Positions 47,069 to 56,301 of a stretch of 56,781 bases of DNA are shown here, one piece after another. This DNA comes from Acholeplasmatales bacterium (lineage in GTDB: Bacteria; Bacillota_I; Bacilli_A; Acholeplasmatales; Anaeroplasmataceae). Position 1 is the first letter of the stretch; each line of letters opens with the position of its first letter. The stretch spans positions 1 to 56,781 of the forward strand of contig JAILRQ010000005.1 in the NCBI GenBank assembly GCA_024698125.1, given 5' to 3'. The notes beneath the pieces were generated by a model. It ran no database searches and was not told the DNA's origin. It saw only the letters and a list, made by a program, of their open reading frames with translations. A program made the translations under genes and the position numbers.

Positions 47069-47134
47069 ATGAATTTTATTAAGAAACTGATTTAATTATG
47101 TGCTACAATCATATTAGGCAGTGAGGTGGTAATT

Positions 47135-48805
47135 ATGTCAGAAATAACTTATGATAATTATAAAGAATTTGAAATCTCAAAGAATAATGAACTAAAAACT
47201 TCAAATGTTCAAAATGTTAGTGTTATGGAAAGTTATGAAAGCAATGTTGGCTATATTTCTGACATTCATCTTCAATCAAGATATAAGAATAACGGATGCA
47301 CTACGATAGATGATATTATGAATGTTAATCACATTATTTCGGAAAATATTTATAAAAATCCTATCAAAATTGCTCTTATAACTGGCGATATTTCTAATAA
47401 TTATTATCATTATGAATATTTTATTCGATCATTATTACAAGCTAAAAAAACTAAAAATACAATATGTGATATGTTTGTAACTTTAGGTAATCATGAGCTT
47501 TGGCCTTTTTCAGATTTAACACTTGATCAAATTGTAAATAAATATAATTTGTTACTAAGTTGCAACGGAATACATTTAGTACATAATAATTTGTACTTTT
47601 ATCAAGAATATAGATTTCATGAAATAACATATAATAATTTGAAGACATATTCTGTTGCAACAATTCGTAATAAACTAAAAAATGCTCAGTTAATTATATT
47701 TGGTGGAATAGGCTTTTCTGGAAGAAACCCTATTTTTAATGCAAATAAAGGAATATATCAAAATGTAATCACGAGAGATGAAGAGATTTTAGAAAGTGAA
47801 AAAATTGATTTTTTATATCAAAAAGTAAAACAAGCCTTATATGATAAAAATGTGATTATCATGACACACATGCCGTTACAGGACTGGTCTAATGATAAAG
47901 AGCCATTTGATAGATTTTATTATGTAAGTGGACATAATCATAATAATTTTATATTAAACAAAGATAATAAGCATTATTTTTCAGATAATCAGATTGGTTA
48001 TTATGGGAAAAATATATATTTAAAATATTTTTATATAAATGACACATCAGATTTTTTTTCTGAATATAAAGATGGTATATATGAAATTTCAAAAATGGAA
48101 TATTTAATGTTTTATAATGGTAAATCCTTAAGAATAAACTTTAATAGGCCGTTCAAAAAAATTTATATGATTAAAAAAATGGGCGCATATATGTTTATGG
48201 TTAAAAGAAATAATGATAATATTTTGTTACTAAATGGTGGAAGAATGAAAAAAATAGGGCAACATTCACTTGAGTACTTTTATGAAAATTTAGATAAATA
48301 TGTAAAAAGCGTTAATGATTATTTAAAAAAATATGCAGATTACCTAAAGACCATTTCAAAAGAGGTATCTAAAATCGGAGGGCACGGAAGAATTCATGGA
48401 AGTATAGTAGATATTGATGAATTGAATCACCTTTATGTAAACCCACTTGATGGTACAATAACACCATACTATGCAAATTCTATGAAGGATAAGTATGTAT
48501 ATGATAATTTTGAAAGTTTGTTGTTTAATAAACTTCCATCAATATATAATAACCTAAACAACTACTTAGATGCTAACAGAAATCAAAGCTCAGTAATATT
48601 AAAAAATGAAATAATAACTAACCATAGAGAATTAGTAGAAGATACTAGCATATACAAAATATCAGGAATAATAAAAAGTCTTCAATACACAACGGAAAAT
48701 AGAATTGTAAGATTATGGAACGATAAATTATTAAATGATGATTTAACAGATACCGCAAAATACATATTATCTGATATACTAGCATATGAATTAGAAGAAA
48801 AATAA
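47135..48805 (+). CDS. Calcineurin-like metallophosphoesterase, accessory gene
   Basis: GYISDIHLQ, GDISNN, LGNHELW, IMTHMPLQ, VSGHNHNN; strongly AT-rich codon usage. Confidence 0.8.
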   Translation: MSEITYDNYKEFEISKNNELKTSNVQNVSVMESYESNVGYISDIHLQSRYKNNGCTTIDDIMNVNHIISENIYKNPIKIALITGDISNNYYHYEYFIRSLLQAKKTKNTICDMFVTLGNHELWPFSDLTLDQIVNKYNLLLSCNGIHLVHNNLYFYQEYRFHEITYNNLKTYSVATIRNKLKNAQLIIFGGIGFSGRNPIFNANKGIYQNVITRDEEILESEKIDFLYQKVKQALYDKNVIIMTHMPLQDWSNDKEPFDRFYYVSGHNHNNFILNKDNKHYFSDNQIGYYGKNIYLKYFYINDTSDFFSEYKDGIYEISKMEYLMFYNGKSLRINFNRPFKKIYMIKKMGAYMFMVKRNNDNILLLNGGRMKKIGQHSLEYFYENLDKYVKSVNDYLKKYADYLKTISKEVSKIGGHGRIHGSIVDIDELNHLYVNPLDGTITPYYANSMKDKYVYDNFESLLFNKLPSIYNNLNNYLDANRNQSSVILKNEIITNHRELVEDTSIYKISGIIKSLQYTTENRIVRLWNDKLLNDDLTDTAKYILSDILAYELEEK

Positions 48806-48893
48806 TTTCAAAACCTATCTAGTTTATATTACTAGGTTATAGATTATAAATAAATGTTAAATCTAATTTAATTAAAAAGATATAATTTGAAAT
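48805..48893. repeat. 89-nt palindromic repeat, copy 1
   Basis: ATTTCAAA (48805-48812), CTAGTTTATATTACTAG (48819-48835) ... TTTGAAAT (48886-48893). Confidence 0.9.
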
Positions 48894-48959
48894 GATCAAA
48901 ATATAAAAATTCATGAGTATTGCATCAAAGTAGCCTAAAAATGCCCGGATTTAAGGGCC

Positions 48960-49024
48960 ATTTTAGGCGTTTTTCATGTTTTTTCGTGTTCTTGTTAGCG
49001 CTGCATCTAAAACGCCTCTAAAAT
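48960..49024. repeat. Hairpin between 89-nt repeat copies 1 and 2
   Basis: ATTTTAGGCGTTTT (48960-48973) / AAAACGCC-TC-TAAAAT (49009-49024). Confidence 0.75.
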
Positions 49025-49109
49025 AGGCCGTATTTTAAATATTTTTCTAAAAAACACCCTTTTTAACCTCTAAAAAGCTTTATATGGTATAATAAAGGCA
49101 GAAAATAAT

Positions 49110-49198
49110 ATTTCAAAAGGTATCTTGTTTTAATAACTAGATAATTTATATTTATAAAATAGATTTTATTATTTATATAACTAGATATGATTTGAAAT
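49110..49198. repeat. 89-nt palindromic repeat, copy 2
   Basis: ATTTCAAA (49110-49117), CTTGTTTTAATAACTAG (49124-49140) ... ATTATTTATATAACTAG (49168-49184), TTTGAAAT (49191-49198). Confidence 0.92.
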
Positions 49199-49213
49199 GA
49201 GGAGTTGATTTAA

Positions 49214-50863
49214 ATGATTATTGAAGCATTCGGAGAGAAAAAGGAATTTAAGAATTATGAAACAGTTCTTAATATCTTAAAGGAGTTTAAGCCCTACGAA
49301 TATAAAAACTATATGTGTGCAGTTGTTAATAATAAGCTTTTTGAGCTTACATTTGTAGTTAAGGGAGATTCAAAGATTGAGTTCTTAGATTTGAAGAACT
49401 CTGATGCTTGCTTTGTATATCAGGCATCCCTTCGATATTTATTCTCATATGCCCTACATGAGCTATTCCCAGACAGTAAGGTAATTTATAATTACTCTAT
49501 ATCAAGATCACTATTTGCACAGCCTGTTGGTATTAAGCATCCAGTAGATTTTGATTTAATTAGAATGATTGAGAATAAGATGAATGAGCTTATAGCTAAG
49601 GATTTAGTGATTAATAGGGTTGTTTTAAGCCATGAGAAGGCCAAGAAAATATATGAGGCTGAGGGGCTTAAGACTAAGCATGATCTTATAGATTATAGAG
49701 AAAGTGATAATGTTAATTCCTATGAGCTTAATGGATACTATAATTACATGCATAATTACCTAGTTCCATCTACAGGATTTATTGATAAGTTTAAGCTAAA
49801 TCTATACACACCAGGAATCATTATCCAATACCCTCGTGCAGAGCTTAATGGAGAGATTCCACGCTTTGTTAATGAGACAGTACTTGGTAAGTATTTAAAG
49901 GATGCAAATAAGTGGGGAAATATCACAGGTGCGGCATATATATCTGAGTTCAATAAAATCGTCGAAAATGGGGATTCTGGTGAGCTTATCAACCTTTGCG
50001 AGACAAAGCATAACAACCTACTTGCAGAGCTTGGTAAAAATATTTTCCAGGATATTGAAAATATTAAGCTTATTTGTGTTGCAGGACCTTCATCAAGTGG
50101 TAAGACTACATTTACAAATAGACTTAGAATCGAGCTTACATCTCTTGGTATAAAGCCTTTAATGATATCTTTAGACAATTATTATAAGACAAGTGGTAAT
50201 TATCCTCTGGATGAGGATGGAAAGCCTGATTATGAGCATATTGAGGCTTTAGATATTGATCTATTTAACGAGCAAATATTTAAGCTAATTGAGGGTGAGG
50301 AGGTTTCGCTTCCAATATTTAACTTCAAGACTCACGAGCGTGAGTTTGGAAGTCCTATAAGGCTTGAAAAGAATCAACCTATAATGATCGAAGGAATTCA
50401 TGCGTTAAACGATGATCTATCTCGTTCAATTCCAGCTGACAATAAATATAGAATATATATTGCTCCTCAGTCACAGCTTCATATTGATGCTGAAACACCT
50501 ATTTCAATGACTGATGTAAGATTACTTAGAAGGCTTGTACGTGACTTTAGAGATAGAAACAGTGATCCAAGAAAGACCATCGAAATGTGGCCTTCAGTAA
50601 GAAGGGGAGAATTCCGTTGGATTTATCCATACCAAGAGCAGGCAGACTTTGTATTTAACTCAGAGCTATCTTATGAGCTTGGAGTATTAAAGGAGCCAGC
50701 TATGAAGGTGCTTAGTAAGGTATCAAAGGATTATAAGGAATATTTCGTTGCACATAGACTTTTAAATATTTTAAAGTATATAAAGCCAATAGATCCAAAA
50801 TGGGTTCCTTGTAATTCCATTTTAAGAGAATTTATAGGGGGTTCAATCTTCTACGAAAAATAA
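49214..50863 (+). CDS. Uridine kinase-like nucleoside kinase with ThrRS-like N-terminal region
   Basis: VAGPSSSGKTTFTNRLRIEL, ISLDNYYKTSGNYPLDEDGKPDYEHIEALD. Confidence 0.9.
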   Translation: MIIEAFGEKKEFKNYETVLNILKEFKPYEYKNYMCAVVNNKLFELTFVVKGDSKIEFLDLKNSDACFVYQASLRYLFSYALHELFPDSKVIYNYSISRSLFAQPVGIKHPVDFDLIRMIENKMNELIAKDLVINRVVLSHEKAKKIYEAEGLKTKHDLIDYRESDNVNSYELNGYYNYMHNYLVPSTGFIDKFKLNLYTPGIIIQYPRAELNGEIPRFVNETVLGKYLKDANKWGNITGAAYISEFNKIVENGDSGELINLCETKHNNLLAELGKNIFQDIENIKLICVAGPSSSGKTTFTNRLRIELTSLGIKPLMISLDNYYKTSGNYPLDEDGKPDYEHIEALDIDLFNEQIFKLIEGEEVSLPIFNFKTHEREFGSPIRLEKNQPIMIEGIHALNDDLSRSIPADNKYRIYIAPQSQLHIDAETPISMTDVRLLRRLVRDFRDRNSDPRKTIEMWPSVRRGEFRWIYPYQEQADFVFNSELSYELGVLKEPAMKVLSKVSKDYKEYFVAHRLLNILKYIKPIDPKWVPCNSILREFIGGSIFYEK

Positions 50864-50886
50864 GCCATTTTTATGGCTTTTTTTCT
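50860..50886 (+). terminator. Rho-independent terminator
   Basis: AAGCCATTTTTATGGCTTTTTTT. Confidence 0.75.
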
Positions 50887-50949
50887 TGTTTAAAAAGTGT
50901 TTTTAAACTATAATTAAAGATGTAGAAATTGAGGTGATATTAAACGATT

Positions 50950-52047
50950 ATGAACGCATTAAACAATGTTGATAGTATAAAGATAGACCAATCTGAGGTT
51001 AAGGATGTCACAAACCTTTATGAGCATAAGGGTAAGGATTTCTACTATAAGGAAACCTTAAAGAAGGAAATGCAAGGCTTAACTAATATGATAATTCTGC
51101 AAAACATAAAGGTGCTTGCAGAAATCAGAGAGCTTAAGGTTGCAGAATCTAGATATAAGATTCTTATAAAGCCAGAGGCTAAGCCTAAGAATAAAGAGGA
51201 GCAAATGATTAAGAATATAGCAGATGTTTTAAGAACGTTTGCTGAGCATATTGATCAGTTTGATTTACTATCTAATCAGTTCTTAAATCTAGCAAAATCT
51301 TTATTTAAAGACATTAAAGGAATAGAGTTTACTAAGAAGAAAAAGCTTGAGCAAATCAATCTAATAACTACTGAAAAAACAATTAACACAAGAAATTTAT
51401 TAGATGAAATGCTTATAAAATATTCATCATTATTAAAGAGCCGCAAGTATGAAATAGTATCACTTGTAGCCTCATTTTTAATTGATTTTATCATGGAAGG
51501 TATCTTCAATGATGAGAATGAATTCATAGCTTTATTCGTTGTGTATGCCTTATTATTCAAGGAAGATTTTGAATTATTTAGGTTTAATCCTTTCTTTGAA
51601 GCATACCACAACAATATGGATGAATATAAGGATTCACTTGCTAAATCAGAGTTTGGGTGGGCTGGAGGATATCCAAATGCCTCATACATAACTAAGACCT
51701 TAAGAAAGATTATGATTGAATCCTACAGTAGAATTGACATCATGATTAAGGGTAGAACAATTACTCAATCTAACCAAAAAACTAATATGATTGAGTCAAC
51801 AATTCTAAAGCGATTACCTGAAGTATTTACTAAGGCAGACATCGCTGCATACCATCCAGAAGCGTCAAAAACTACAATTGACCGTACACTTGCCCGTTTG
51901 CGAGACGAAAACAAAATCAAACCAAACGGTACAGGTAGATCAGCTTCATGGGTTAAGATTTATAAGGAAGATAAGTTTAATAAGGATCAATTGATGAAGC
52001 AATTCACAATTGCAGATTATGTTCCAGAAGAAGACGAGGACCGCTAG
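50950..52047 (+). CDS. Fic-like/HTH protein of unknown function without a recognisable Fic motif
   Basis: C-terminal winged-HTH FTKADIAAYHPEASKTTIDRTLARLRDENKIKPNGTGRSASWVKIY, as in C-termini of Fic-family proteins; no HPFxxGNGR. Confidence 0.5.
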   Translation: MNALNNVDSIKIDQSEVKDVTNLYEHKGKDFYYKETLKKEMQGLTNMIILQNIKVLAEIRELKVAESRYKILIKPEAKPKNKEEQMIKNIADVLRTFAEHIDQFDLLSNQFLNLAKSLFKDIKGIEFTKKKKLEQINLITTEKTINTRNLLDEMLIKYSSLLKSRKYEIVSLVASFLIDFIMEGIFNDENEFIALFVVYALLFKEDFELFRFNPFFEAYHNNMDEYKDSLAKSEFGWAGGYPNASYITKTLRKIMIESYSRIDIMIKGRTITQSNQKTNMIESTILKRLPEVFTKADIAAYHPEASKTTIDRTLARLRDENKIKPNGTGRSASWVKIYKEDKFNKDQLMKQFTIADYVPEEDEDR

Positions 52048-52068
52048 AGAGCTAGCAGGTCCTTTTTC
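52036..52068 (+). terminator. Rho-independent terminator
   Basis: AGGACCGCTAG-agag-CTAGCaGGTCCTTTTTC. Confidence 0.75.
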
Positions 52069-52081
52069 TTTACTTTTAAAT

Positions 52082-52148
52082 ATTTCAAAAGTCAACTAGT
52101 TTTAAAAACTAGTTTTATTTTTGCTTAAAACTAGCAAACACGAAAGTT
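52082..52148. repeat. Partial or shortened copy of the 89-nt repeat
   Basis: ATTTCAAA (52082-52089), +14 CTAGTTTTAAAAACTAG (52096-52112), AAAACTAG at 52127-52134; right terminus not conserved. Confidence 0.65.
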
Positions 52149-52326
52149 ATAAAAGTCAAAACCGATAGTTGTAAAAGAAAAGTGATAGTTCTTGCCATCA
52201 TCAGATGAATATGATCAGTAAAATAGAAGAAGCTACACTAAAGAATCCATGTATAAATGCTCGATTTGAGCCATCGAGAGCTAAAAATACGGGTAAATGC
52301 CCGCAACGACGGGCTAAAATGCTCCT

Positions 52327-52355
52327 TATATACGCGTACGCGCGCGTGTACGCGC
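52327..52355. other. 29-nt alternating pyrimidine/purine tract (Z-DNA/cruciform-prone)
   Basis: TATATACGCGTACGCGCGCGTGTACGCGC; contains inverted repeat CGCGTAC (52333-52339)/GTACGCG (52348-52354). Confidence 0.9.
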
Positions 52356-53140
52356 TCTATATATATAAAATAAAGAGAAGCTGCTGAACAATATCTGGAC
52401 ACCATGTAGATCAGAGAAGAAGTATAATTTAGACAGTAAGATTTCGCACGTTACACTCGCGATTAATAAGTGCCAATGATTTTTTAGGGTACACATACAG
52501 GCAGTAAAAGAAGAAGAGGAGTCCCAAAATGCTGGGTAAATAATTTCTCACCAAAAAGATATGGCAAAATGGGGAAACGAGCCTGAATAAATATCCGTTT
52601 TGGACCTTTTGGATGGTCATTTTCGTTAGAATCAAACTCCAATCATACTCAAACAAAGCCCTACTGACTATGTTTACAGAAGAAGAAATAGCCTAAAACG
52701 GCACTCAATCATATTCATGAGGTCGATTGAATATCTTCTTTTGAGAGTTTTGAGTCTTTTTATTATATTTACATAACTTCCTATAATGTATATTATGTAA
52801 ACCAATTAAATATACGTCAACCACGCCGAATATCAATGATTTGTGGGTAATGTTGAAAAAGAAAATTACACTCAATTCGAAAAAATCCAAAAAAGCCCGT
52901 GGTTATGGGCTAAACGACTGGTCGAGTTTTGGAGAATTCACTAAAAAAATAATCCACAATCAGAAAATCGAGTCCCCAGCTGGAAATCTTAAAATGGCGA
53001 ATTCGTGGAACCCCTTGTAACCATGGCTTTTCTACGCTTCCTCATATATACCTACTATAAATATCACGAATCGAGAATTCTTTCTGCGGGTGAATCTTCA
53101 GCTCGATCTCTGATTTTGCATCAGGTGAGTATGTTCAAAT

Positions 53141-53229
53141 ATTTCATCATTTTGCTAGTCTATTGCTTTCTATAATCTTTTATATAAATCTCTATTAGGT
53201 AGTTTTAAAAACTAGATACCTATTGAAAT
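53141..53229. repeat. 89-nt palindromic repeat, copy 3 (diverged left end)
   Basis: ATTTCATC (53141), CTAG at +14 (53155), GTAGTTTTAAAAACTAG (53199-53215), ATTGAAAT (53222-53229). Confidence 0.8.
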
Positions 53230-53461
53230 ATCCTCTCATGCCTCTTTTGAAGTAGCTCTATATATTTATATAAGGATGAGAGATTTTTGGGCTTCGAGAC
53301 GCATAAATACCCATAAATTGGATTCTCGATCGCTCATAGCTCTCTATATAGAATCCATACAATAGTTATAATTATATGAAAACGCTTTAGATAGGTTTCA
53401 TATATATAGTTAATGATATGATTTCCCTTCTTAAAGATAATTTATTCACACTTTTTATATA

Positions 53462-53533
53462 AACCTACAATCAATGAAAATGAATATCGTTATTTTCATA
53501 AATAGTTTTCATAACTCCAAACACTTGTAGGTT
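53462..53533. repeat. Nested hairpin between repeat copies 3 and 4
   Basis: Outer AACCTACAA (53462-53470)/TTGTAGGTT (53525-53533); inner ATGAAAAT (53474-53481)/ATTTTCAT (53492-53499). Confidence 0.8.
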
Positions 53534-53607
53534 CTTTCTATCTGATGACGATTCTTCCGTAGATGATCTAAATATAGTCAAAATAATGGTGTCTTTAATT
53601 CGCGGAC

Positions 53608-53696
53608 ATTTCAAAAACAACATACTTTTAATTATCTTAATTTCTAAATTGCAATAATCTATTTTCTAGTTTTAAATACTAGATATATTTTGAAAT
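53608..53696. repeat. 89-nt palindromic repeat, copy 4
   Basis: ATTTCAAA (53608-53615) ... CTAGTTTTAAATACTAG (53666-53682), TTTGAAAT (53689-53696). Confidence 0.9.
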
Positions 53697-53945
53697 GTTT
53701 TTAGCCCCCTTTTTTAGAGATACTTCCATGAGACAGTCAGGCGAATTTCTTTCACAGATATAACACAAGATAAGTCTCTCTATTTTTAAATGATCAAGCC
53801 AAATTAAGTTCTCTAAAATCTTCCTATTCTTCTCATACTTCTACCATCTTCTCTTCTAGGATTCTTTAATCACTCTATCTCCTAAAAACTCCTTAAAATC
53901 TACCTCTAAAATCCCATTTACATATATACCCCTTCTAAAACGCAA

Positions 53946-53969
53946 AAAACGGCCATTTTTAGCCGTTTT
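53946..53969. repeat. Hairpin between repeat copies 4 and 5
   Basis: AAAACGGC-cattttta-GCCGTTTT. Confidence 0.8.
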
Positions 53970-54058
53970 AATAATTTGTACCGATAAATACTCATCTTTT
54001 ATACAATATCATTATTTAAGGGTATCCTCGTTAGTCATTTTTTACTAAAATTTGAATT

Positions 54059-54147
54059 TTTTTACATCCTAACTAATTTTATAAATTAATTTAACTTTTA
54101 TCATTTATTCTTTTATCTAGTTTATAATACTAGGTATGATTTGAAAT
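54059..54147. repeat. 89-nt palindromic repeat, copy 5 (diverged left end)
   Basis: CTAATTTTATAAATTAA (54073-54089) ... CTAGTTTATAATACTAG (54117-54133), TTTGAAAT (54140-54147). Confidence 0.8.
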
Positions 54148-54153
54148 ATTTAA

Positions 54154-54181
54154 AAAAGGAGGTCCACTTTTAGGACCTCCC
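54154..54181 (-). terminator. Rho-independent terminator of the Fe-ADH gene
   Basis: On minus strand GGAGGTCC-taaaagt-GGACCTCC-TTTTTT. Confidence 0.8.
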
Positions 54182-54185
54182 ATAA

Positions 54186-55364
54186 CTACTTTGCAAGCTC
54201 TAGAATTGCTAGTGCTTCATCATATCCAATTTTAACTCTATCAGGAATTTCTCTTGTACCCTTGAAGGTATAGTTGTATGCAAGATCCTTAAAGCTTTCT
54301 TCATAAATATCAAGCTCTGATAATCTTGTTGGCATTCCAATACTCTTATAGAACTCCTCAAGAGCAATTATTCCATTAAAGGCTATCTCTTCATCACTAC
54401 CCTTATTTTCTACATCCATTACCTCAAGGGCAAATCTTTTAAATCTTTCTATATCTGATTTATAGACATATTTTGCCCAAGCAGGGAATAGGACTGATAG
54501 ACCAGCTCCATGAGCTACTCTATCAAACATTCCTGAAACCTCATGCTCAATTTGATGAACTGGCATAAAATATTTCTTTCCAGATCCTGTTAGTCCATTA
54601 TGTGATAAGGATGATGCCCACATTAAATCAGCTCTTGCGTTATAGTCATTTGGATTATCTATAACCACTCTTCCAGCCTTAACTACACTCTTTAATAATC
54701 CTAAGGCAATATTATCAGTTAATTCTGTCTCATCATTAACTGAATAATATCTTTCCATTGTATGCATCATTATATCTACAATTCCACATCCAGTTTGGAA
54801 TTTATTTACTGAATATGTAAGCTCTGGATTTTCAATTGTAAATAGTGGTCTATGAGCTTCGTTTGAGCATCCTCTTTTTTCTAATGTCTCATCATTTGTG
54901 ATTACACATGAATCACTCATTTCAGATCCTGCAGCTGAAATTGTAAGAATTGCTCCAAAGGGAACTCTTTTTTTAACATTTGGTGTCTTAGTCTTTATTT
55001 GGAACTCCCAAGGGTCAATATCTGTTCTTGCACTGTCACAAATAGATTTAGTACTATCAAGAACTGATCCTCCACCTACCGCAAGCACAAAATCAATATT
55101 ATTTTCCTTTACAAGCTTAACTCCCTTTCTTACAAGCGAAAGCTTAGGATTCGCTTCAACACCAGGAAGCTCTATAAAGTTAATGTCATTATCCTTAAGA
55201 GATTTTACAACTCTATCATATAATCCATTCTTTTTTATAGAACCCATTCCATAATGAAGTAATATATTTTTAAATCCATAGGACTTAATAATATCACCAA
55301 TCATATTTTCTTTATCCCTACCAAAGAAAACCTTTGTAGGAGTGTAGTACTCAAAATCAATCAT
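54186..55364 (-). CDS. Iron-containing alcohol dehydrogenase
   Basis: FDYYTP-like N-term, LAVGGGSVLDSTKSIC, MPVHQIEHEVSGMFDRVAHGAGLSVLFPAW. Confidence 0.93.
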   Translation of the reverse strand: MIDFEYYTPTKVFFGRDKENMIGDIIKSYGFKNILLHYGMGSIKKNGLYDRVVKSLKDNDINFIELPGVEANPKLSLVRKGVKLVKENNIDFVLAVGGGSVLDSTKSICDSARTDIDPWEFQIKTKTPNVKKRVPFGAILTISAAGSEMSDSCVITNDETLEKRGCSNEAHRPLFTIENPELTYSVNKFQTGCGIVDIMMHTMERYYSVNDETELTDNIALGLLKSVVKAGRVVIDNPNDYNARADLMWASSLSHNGLTGSGKKYFMPVHQIEHEVSGMFDRVAHGAGLSVLFPAWAKYVYKSDIERFKRFALEVMDVENKGSDEEIAFNGIIALEEFYKSIGMPTRLSELDIYEESFKDLAYNYTFKGTREIPDRVKIGYDEALAILELAK

Positions 55365-56301
55365 CTTTCTTATCCTCCATTGCTAGTGGGTGCGTATCAT
55401 TATACGTCTCCCTCATATATTTGTTTGTGATGTTAGTATATATCTGAGTTGTAGATATATCCTCATGACCTAGAAGATCCTGAACTATTCTTAAATCCAT
55501 TCCATTCTCTAAAAGATGGGTTGCGAAGGAATGACGAAGGGTATGAGGAGATATTTCCTTCTCTATACCATTTTCCTTTGCAAGTGTCTTTATATATTTA
55601 AAAATTGCCTGTCTTGTGATTCTATCTCCCTTATAATTCATAAATAAAACATTTCCTGTATGCAAAGATAGATAAGATCTTTCCTGCTCTATATATTCTC
55701 TTACGGCACTAACTACAGTATCTCCCATAGGAACAATTCTTTCCTTATCTCCCTTACCAATGACTGTAAGATATTTTGCAGTCATATGAAGATTTGTTAC
55801 ATCAAGGCTTACAAGCTCAGATACACGAAGCCCACATCCATATAAAAGCTCCATCATAGCCCTATTTCTTTTTCCTAGGGGCTTTGTGGTATCAATTGAG
55901 TCAATCATAGTGTTAACCTCATCAACTGTTAAAATTACAGGCAGTGGCTTTGAAAGCTTAGGTGGCTCTACCATCTTAGCTGGATTATCTCTTACATCCC
56001 TGTAATTTTCACATAAAAACTTATGGAAGTCCTTTATTGCGGTAAGCTTACGCGAAATTGACTGAGGAGACATTCCTGCTCTTTTAAGATGGACAATATA
56101 TTTTTTAACCATATCCTCTGTAATATCTCGTACGTCATAGCAATCCTCATAGGTTCTTAAAAACTTTCCATACTTATCAAGATCTGACATATATGCATTT
56201 ATTGAGTTTTCACTTAGTCTTTTATCTCCAGATAGATAGTATTTAAAGTCCTGAAGCTCATAAAATACTACTCCATCCTCTTCTACATTTAGCTTTCTCA
56301 T
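55357..56301 (-). CDS. Site-specific tyrosine recombinase, XerD-like
   Basis: LLYGCGLRVSELVSL, ISPHTLRHSFATHLLENGMDLRIVQDLLGHEDISTTQIYTN. Confidence 0.92.
   Translation of the reverse strand: MRKLNVEEDGVVFYELQDFKYYLSGDKRLSENSINAYMSDLDKYGKFLRTYEDCYDVRDITEDMVKKYIVHLKRAGMSPQSISRKLTAIKDFHKFLCENYRDVRDNPAKMVEPPKLSKPLPVILTVDEVNTMIDSIDTTKPLGKRNRAMMELLYGCGLRVSELVSLDVTNLHMTAKYLTVIGKGDKERIVPMGDTVVSAVREYIEQERSYLSLHTGNVLFMNYKGDRITRQAIFKYIKTLAKENGIEKEISPHTLRHSFATHLLENGMDLRIVQDLLGHEDISTTQIYTNITNKYMRETYNDTHPLAMEDKKDD

Follow-up and report, generated by a model that had tools for sequence, protein, structure and literature searches.

Outward-facing paired half-sites around dif suggest an undescribed terminus system in a family of small-genome Bacilli

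Introduction

Just two fork-trap systems, unrelated to each other, have been described, and their genes tus and rtp are limited to four clades (PMC6549158). The known polar systems of the replication terminus are fork traps, in which the forks that leave dif, the XerC/XerD chromosome dimer resolution site, are blocked; in one of them, Tus-Ter, the Ter site is non-palindromic (PMC6549158). The sites of the other, that of the terminator protein RTP, combine a strong with a weak half-site and block the fork if it meets the strong half first (PMC10331603). Two further kinds of repeated sequence serve for comparison, matS, a 13-bp target with 23 repeats over 800 kb (PMC3330122), and the FtsK-orienting polar sequences (KOPS), 8-bp motifs that are oriented along each chromosome arm (PMC2680272). 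Here, we examine a family of long imperfect palindromes that surrounds dif in a stretch of 56,781 nucleotides from an Acholeplasmatales bacterium (contig JAILRQ010000005.1 of assembly GCA_024698125.1, positions 1 to 56,781; hereafter "the window"). The geometry of these sites, their centering on dif, their orientation, their conservation and their taxonomic restriction are all matters of direct observation. That they constitute a terminus-specific site system is a conclusion in which we have great confidence, and their near-confinement to the surroundings of dif, with an outward orientation on both sides, suggests a hitherto undescribed means of managing the termination of replication or the segregation of the terminus, and not mobile DNA. 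In the literature available to us, nothing relevant was found on a terminus protein of the Fic fold or on a system of terminus sites in this order.

The Site Cluster of the Window

An initial annotation of the window had described five imperfect palindromes of 89 nt each, and both their lengths and their coordinates proved to be exact. When the five are aligned in a common orientation, 27 of the 89 columns are invariant. Each had been viewed as two inverted halves of 31 bp; two halves are indeed present, but they are unequal: the half that lies away from dif is the strong one, with a sequence near the consensus, and its partner is degenerate. The half-element can be written as ATTTCAAAN6CTAGTTTN5ACTAG; with up to 3 mismatches allowed, this pattern has 6 matches in the window versus the 0.03 expected from dinucleotide shuffles, none of which reached 6. 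These include a single half at 52082-52112, absent from the initial annotation, that matches the pattern exactly and has the top score in the window with R1, our sequence model of the half-element. From left to right, the sites and dif are as follows.

48805-48893, + strand: element e1, 89 nt, left of dif; strong (outward) half 48805-48835.
49110-49198, + strand: element e2, 89 nt, left of dif; strong half 49110-49140; a kinase-like gene lies directly downstream.
52082-52112, + strand: single strong half-element, 686 bp left of dif, directly after the open reading frame (ORF) 50950-52047.
52776-52803, + strand: dif, ACTTCCTATAATGTATATTATGTAAACC, an exact pattern match.
53141-53229, - strand: element e3, 89 nt, right of dif; strong outward half 53199-53229.
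53608-53696, - strand: element e4, 89 nt, right of dif; strong outward half 53666-53696.
54059-54147, - strand: element e5, 89 nt, right of dif; strong outward half 54117-54147; inner end diverged.

The dif sequence, which occurs once in the genome, thus lies inside the cluster, and it is there (near 52.5-53 kb) that the GC skew, positive on the left side, turns negative. These two facts together identify the region as the replication terminus and not as an accessory island, so that the "low-coding accessory segments" to which the elements had been assigned are in reality part of the chromosome terminus. The description of the elements as intergenic is right to within one base, position 48805 being also the last stop-codon base of ORF 47126-48805. 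The whole genome, in 120 contigs, has just 1 further match to the half pattern, with 3 mismatches and on a different contig; 6 clustered copies plus 1 elsewhere is not the genome-wide dispersal of repeats such as BOX, ERIC or miniature inverted-repeat transposable elements (MITEs). A scan with Rfam gave no match at the elements, its only hits, a T-box leader and a tRNA, being located elsewhere.

Taxonomic Range and Conserved Geometry

The family from which the window comes (f1, class Bacilli) has 7 genera; f2 to f5 denote other families of its order. The f1 genomes that we used are all draft assemblies, at least some of them metagenome-assembled genomes (MAGs), and several thresholds, those of the core score and the block score, were set by eye. 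The initial annotation had staked its case for an element family on the existence of copies in relatives, and R1 does match 50 of 55 f1 genomes, most of the genomes without a match being incomplete. Among 296 sampled genomes of the class (E ≤ 1e-4, with the stricter filters in force at that scale), R1 matches 11 of the 12 f1 members versus none of the 284 others. Neither the half pattern nor the R1 model gives credible clusters in the other families of the order, and de novo repeat counts around dif do not exceed the level of shuffles in f5 or at two of the three f3 loci. In f2, a different direct repeat resembling TCGATTGCTCATTTTT recurs around dif at locus L076, and direct repeats near dif exceed the shuffle level at locus L091.

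The regions of dif or of the cluster were compared in 31 other f1 genomes, in 30 of which dif was located. At dif, the GC skew switches sign in almost every f1 locus whose sequence extends far enough to either side; a few very short contigs are uninformative. Most sites are no more than 4.5 kb from dif, and very few fall inside a long ORF. Their conserved half reads ATTTCAAA-N6-CTAGTTTTAAAAACTAG, with a weaker partner half on the dif side, and the ATTTCAAA block is on the side away from dif in 102 of 116 oriented cores (47 outward on the left and 55 on the right, versus 9 and 5 inward). The cautious form of this result is that the outward majority holds in all 7 genera; the binomial p of 1e-17 ignores the non-independence of the sites.

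A degraded inverted copy of the half is present as a partner at about half of the sites, 42-44 or 64-66 bp away. Around strong outward cores, partner halves are enriched solely in the direction of dif, at offsets of 42-44 or 65-66 bp, and in all 53 paired sites the outer half has the higher sequence score, a result due in part to the way in which the sites were selected. Without selection on the block, 36 partners are inward versus 9 outward, with no preference in genus g6 (5:5). The total lengths of the sites form two classes, one of 87-91 and one of 108-111 nt, which differ by ~22 bp, or about two helical turns; the 89 nt of the elements in the window thus represent one of two classes among the relatives. 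The two classes are unevenly distributed in f1, with 17 sites of 108-111 nt and 8 of 87-91 nt on the left arm versus 2 and 18 on the right, a bias that may come from shared site ancestry.

All 6 copies of the window have counterparts in the congener G001 (MAG UBA3206, loci L008 and L045), at distances from dif that agree within about 11 bp. A comparison of these two genomes, which included no systematic search for target-site duplications, revealed no empty orthologous site. The stretches 10-30 kb from dif contain no site in G001, G006, G014, G017 and G018; in genus g6, G023 and G033 have an extra copy, still outward, at a distance of 15-18 kb. In G031 (loci L071 and L093), non-ribosomal peptide synthetase genes have apparently been inserted between dif and the pair of kinase-like and Fic-like genes that usually stands to its left, and the sites keep flanking dif despite this separation. 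From the synthetase genes at both contig ends we infer that this insertion joins the two G031 contigs.

Comparison with Known Terminus Systems

The genomes of 60 relatives were searched for the proteins of the described systems. No match to RTP (PF02334) exceeded the cut-off in any of them, and neither Tus (PF05472) nor MatP (PF06303) was found in any of the 60; the controls, B. subtilis for the first and E. coli for the other two, were positive. Hence, no known system accounts for the role of these sites. The FtsK gamma domain is present, with scores mostly of 47-66 bits in f1 versus mostly 69-82 bits in the rest of the order. The lower score in f1 coincides with the presence of the sites.

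One of the systems closest to ours is RTP-Ter of Bacillus subtilis. Its polar sites, like the oriented sites described here, are mirrored around the terminus and consist of a strong and a weak half (here, as judged by sequence). In RTP-Ter each half-site binds a winged-helix dimer, and the candidate protein described below has a winged helix at its C-terminal end and its gene at the terminus. The half-sites of RTP adjoin each other and are shorter, whereas the sites described here span 87-111 bp, contain two separated palindromes and present their strong half to the origin. The Tus-Ter sites of Escherichia coli and its relatives are polar and, like ours, mirrored around dif, but they are spread widely and depend on a protein with no homologue here. 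With the MatP-matS system of the Ter macrodomain our sites share the marking of a terminus region by repeated palindromes; in place of short, widespread sites, however, there are long ones within ~4.5 kb of dif, apart from the few distant copies of g6. Like KOPS, they switch orientation at dif; unlike KOPS, they are long and confined to its surroundings.

Neighboring Genes and a Candidate Binder

Among the neighbors of the cluster are topoisomerase IV genes, the gene of a Xer-type recombinase, and a kinase-like gene that directly precedes that of a previously unannotated protein of 365 aa.

49214-50863, + strand: phosphoribulokinase/uridine-kinase-like protein, 549 aa (Pfam PF00485, E=5.8e-18), upstream of the Fic-like gene.
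50950-52047, + strand: candidate trans-acting protein P0001, 365 aa, with a Fic/Fido fold, a degenerate catalytic motif and a C-terminal winged helix.
55357-56301, - strand: Xer-type tyrosine recombinase (Pfam PF00589, E=6.4e-54), a conserved neighbor of dif.

The Fido fold of the 365-aa protein is indicated by a profile hidden Markov model match to the Fido protein of PDB entry 8uqu (E=1.3e-29) and by an AlphaFold model (predicted local distance difference test score 83) that Foldseek matched to Fic structures, the same entry (E=1.8e-10) among them. The catalytic motif of Fic proteins is HPFx[D/E]GN[G/K]R (PMC2686095); the aligned region here reads like FNxxNEFxxL, and the motif's histidine and arginine are not conserved. 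Few parts of the protein are as well conserved as its C-terminal winged helix. Its gene is found throughout the order, in 107 of 150 genomes, being missing from most of the very small g23 genomes, and in f1, as in three other families, it lies directly beside dif. By its position and domain composition, this protein is a candidate for the binder of the sites, an assignment that we make only tentatively.

Several further features of the region were recorded. The Xer-type recombinase gene is present at 28 of 32 loci. ORF 47126-48805 (559 aa, without a Pfam match, in a stretch of roughly 25% GC) lies between the topoisomerase IV and kinase-like genes, and is not at that place in G001. Around dif, ~2 kb (52048-54185) are non-coding, and blocks outside the elements are strongly conserved between the window and G001; the corresponding non-coding stretch in f5 measures about 1 kb or less. 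An alternating purine-pyrimidine, CG-rich tract, TATATACGCGTACGCGCGCGTGTACGCGC, at 52328-52356, 463 bp to the left of dif, is identical in G001 and possibly Z-DNA-forming; similar tracts occur within 2 kb of dif in 5 other loci, family f5 included.

Discussion

We view the elements as putative terminus-specific protein-binding sites that bear a direction and are arranged in mirror image around dif. The selection on symmetric protein binding that the initial annotation had suggested is supported by the conserved half-sites, the two spacing classes and the copies at matching positions in different species. A strong and a weak palindrome, at spacings that differ by about two helical turns, fit two cooperating dimers, and the constant outward orientation fits a polar function. 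The near-consensus 31-bp half, with its 8-bp block and 17-bp palindrome, faces the origin, and the weak inverted copy, where there is one, is on the dif side. The following mechanism can be imagined. One protein dimer would be bound per palindrome, the strong half being occupied first and the weak half cooperatively; the resulting complex would be asymmetric, and thereby the site would gain its direction. As a polar barrier, it could make the two replication forks meet near dif, as RTP-Ter does in Bacillus, and the protein that binds it may be the Fic-derived one, with its winged helix, whose gene adjoins dif. Such a polar fork barrier is the likeliest use of the sites, although it falls just short of being probable. 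The more specific proposition of a third, independently evolved fork trap, with long two-palindrome Ter sites and a terminator derived from a degenerate Fic fold, we consider distinctly doubtful.

The main rival is an organizer of the terminus comparable to matS, whose bound protein would hold or pair the dif region, exclude SMC, or recruit topoisomerase IV or the divisome; orientation would then set the direction of spreading or of the arrival of FtsK or SMC, and not the arrest of forks. The tight clustering around dif, the absence of MatP from this order, the topoisomerase IV genes near dif in g1, g5 and g7, and the two spacing classes, which suit dimers lying side by side, all speak for it. 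However, a handful of long sites within ~9 kb has little in common with 23 copies of a 13-bp matS over 800 kb (PMC3330122), and a pure organizer has no need of an outward orientation, so we judge this explanation rather unlikely. An accessory role in Xer recombination at dif or in stopping FtsK, like that of the accessory sequences of plasmid Xer sites but two-sided, would agree with the centering on dif and with an FtsK gamma domain that is present and lower-scoring in f1. Accessory recombination sites usually need a fixed, close spacing, and here the distance from dif to the nearest site varies between genera from ~0.2 to 0.9 kb and more, which makes such a role improbable.

The sites could also be operators of the kinase-like and Fic-like gene pair and its neighbors, given that in several genera the kinase-like gene has one immediately upstream and that rtp of B. 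subtilis is autoregulated through its own sites. Yet many of them lie at the downstream ends of convergent genes, they occur in mirror orientation to the left and right of dif, and in G031 the gene pair was separated from dif while the sites stayed; we consider such a role improbable. Least probable is the proposal that the elements are MITE-like or a structured RNA or DNA palindrome. Their inverted-repeat architecture is in its favor, as is a complementarity slightly greater within elements than between them (0.614 vs 0.595, p=0.0065). Mobilization in trans, as the initial annotation had envisaged, does not agree with a single dif-centered cluster per genome, outward on both arms and with dif distances that match in G001; the elements have no match to plasmids and one weak partial match to phages. 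Selection on RNA folding, another of its suggestions, is likewise not supported, the z-scores ranging from +0.2 to -2.5, with 4 of the 5 elements unremarkable beside shuffles and an inner half that degenerates freely.

Other observations weigh against the fork barrier and its presumed binder. The genes on both arms mostly point toward dif, and the outward orientation of the sites is thus confounded with the direction of transcription. Under the RTP rule, these sites would block forks on entering the terminus, so that a trap requires the opposite polarity; moreover, about 4.5 kb on either side of dif is a very tight cluster for a fork trap. The Fic-like gene adjoins dif in f2, f4 and f5, which are without sites, and in f3 it lies far from dif (in G054, for example, dif is at 716,563 and the gene at 402,835); hence, its product need not be the binder, and the case for it as a proven partner is weakened.

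The reason that fork traps exist is still debated. Sites that are lineage-wide, arranged in mirror image and centered on dif in small-genome Bacilli represent an independent case of terminus marking, and they turn the question of whether terminus site systems have arisen repeatedly, and from which proteins, into one that can be tested directly. If true, a Fic-derived fork trap would be situated in a family of the Bacilli for which none is known.
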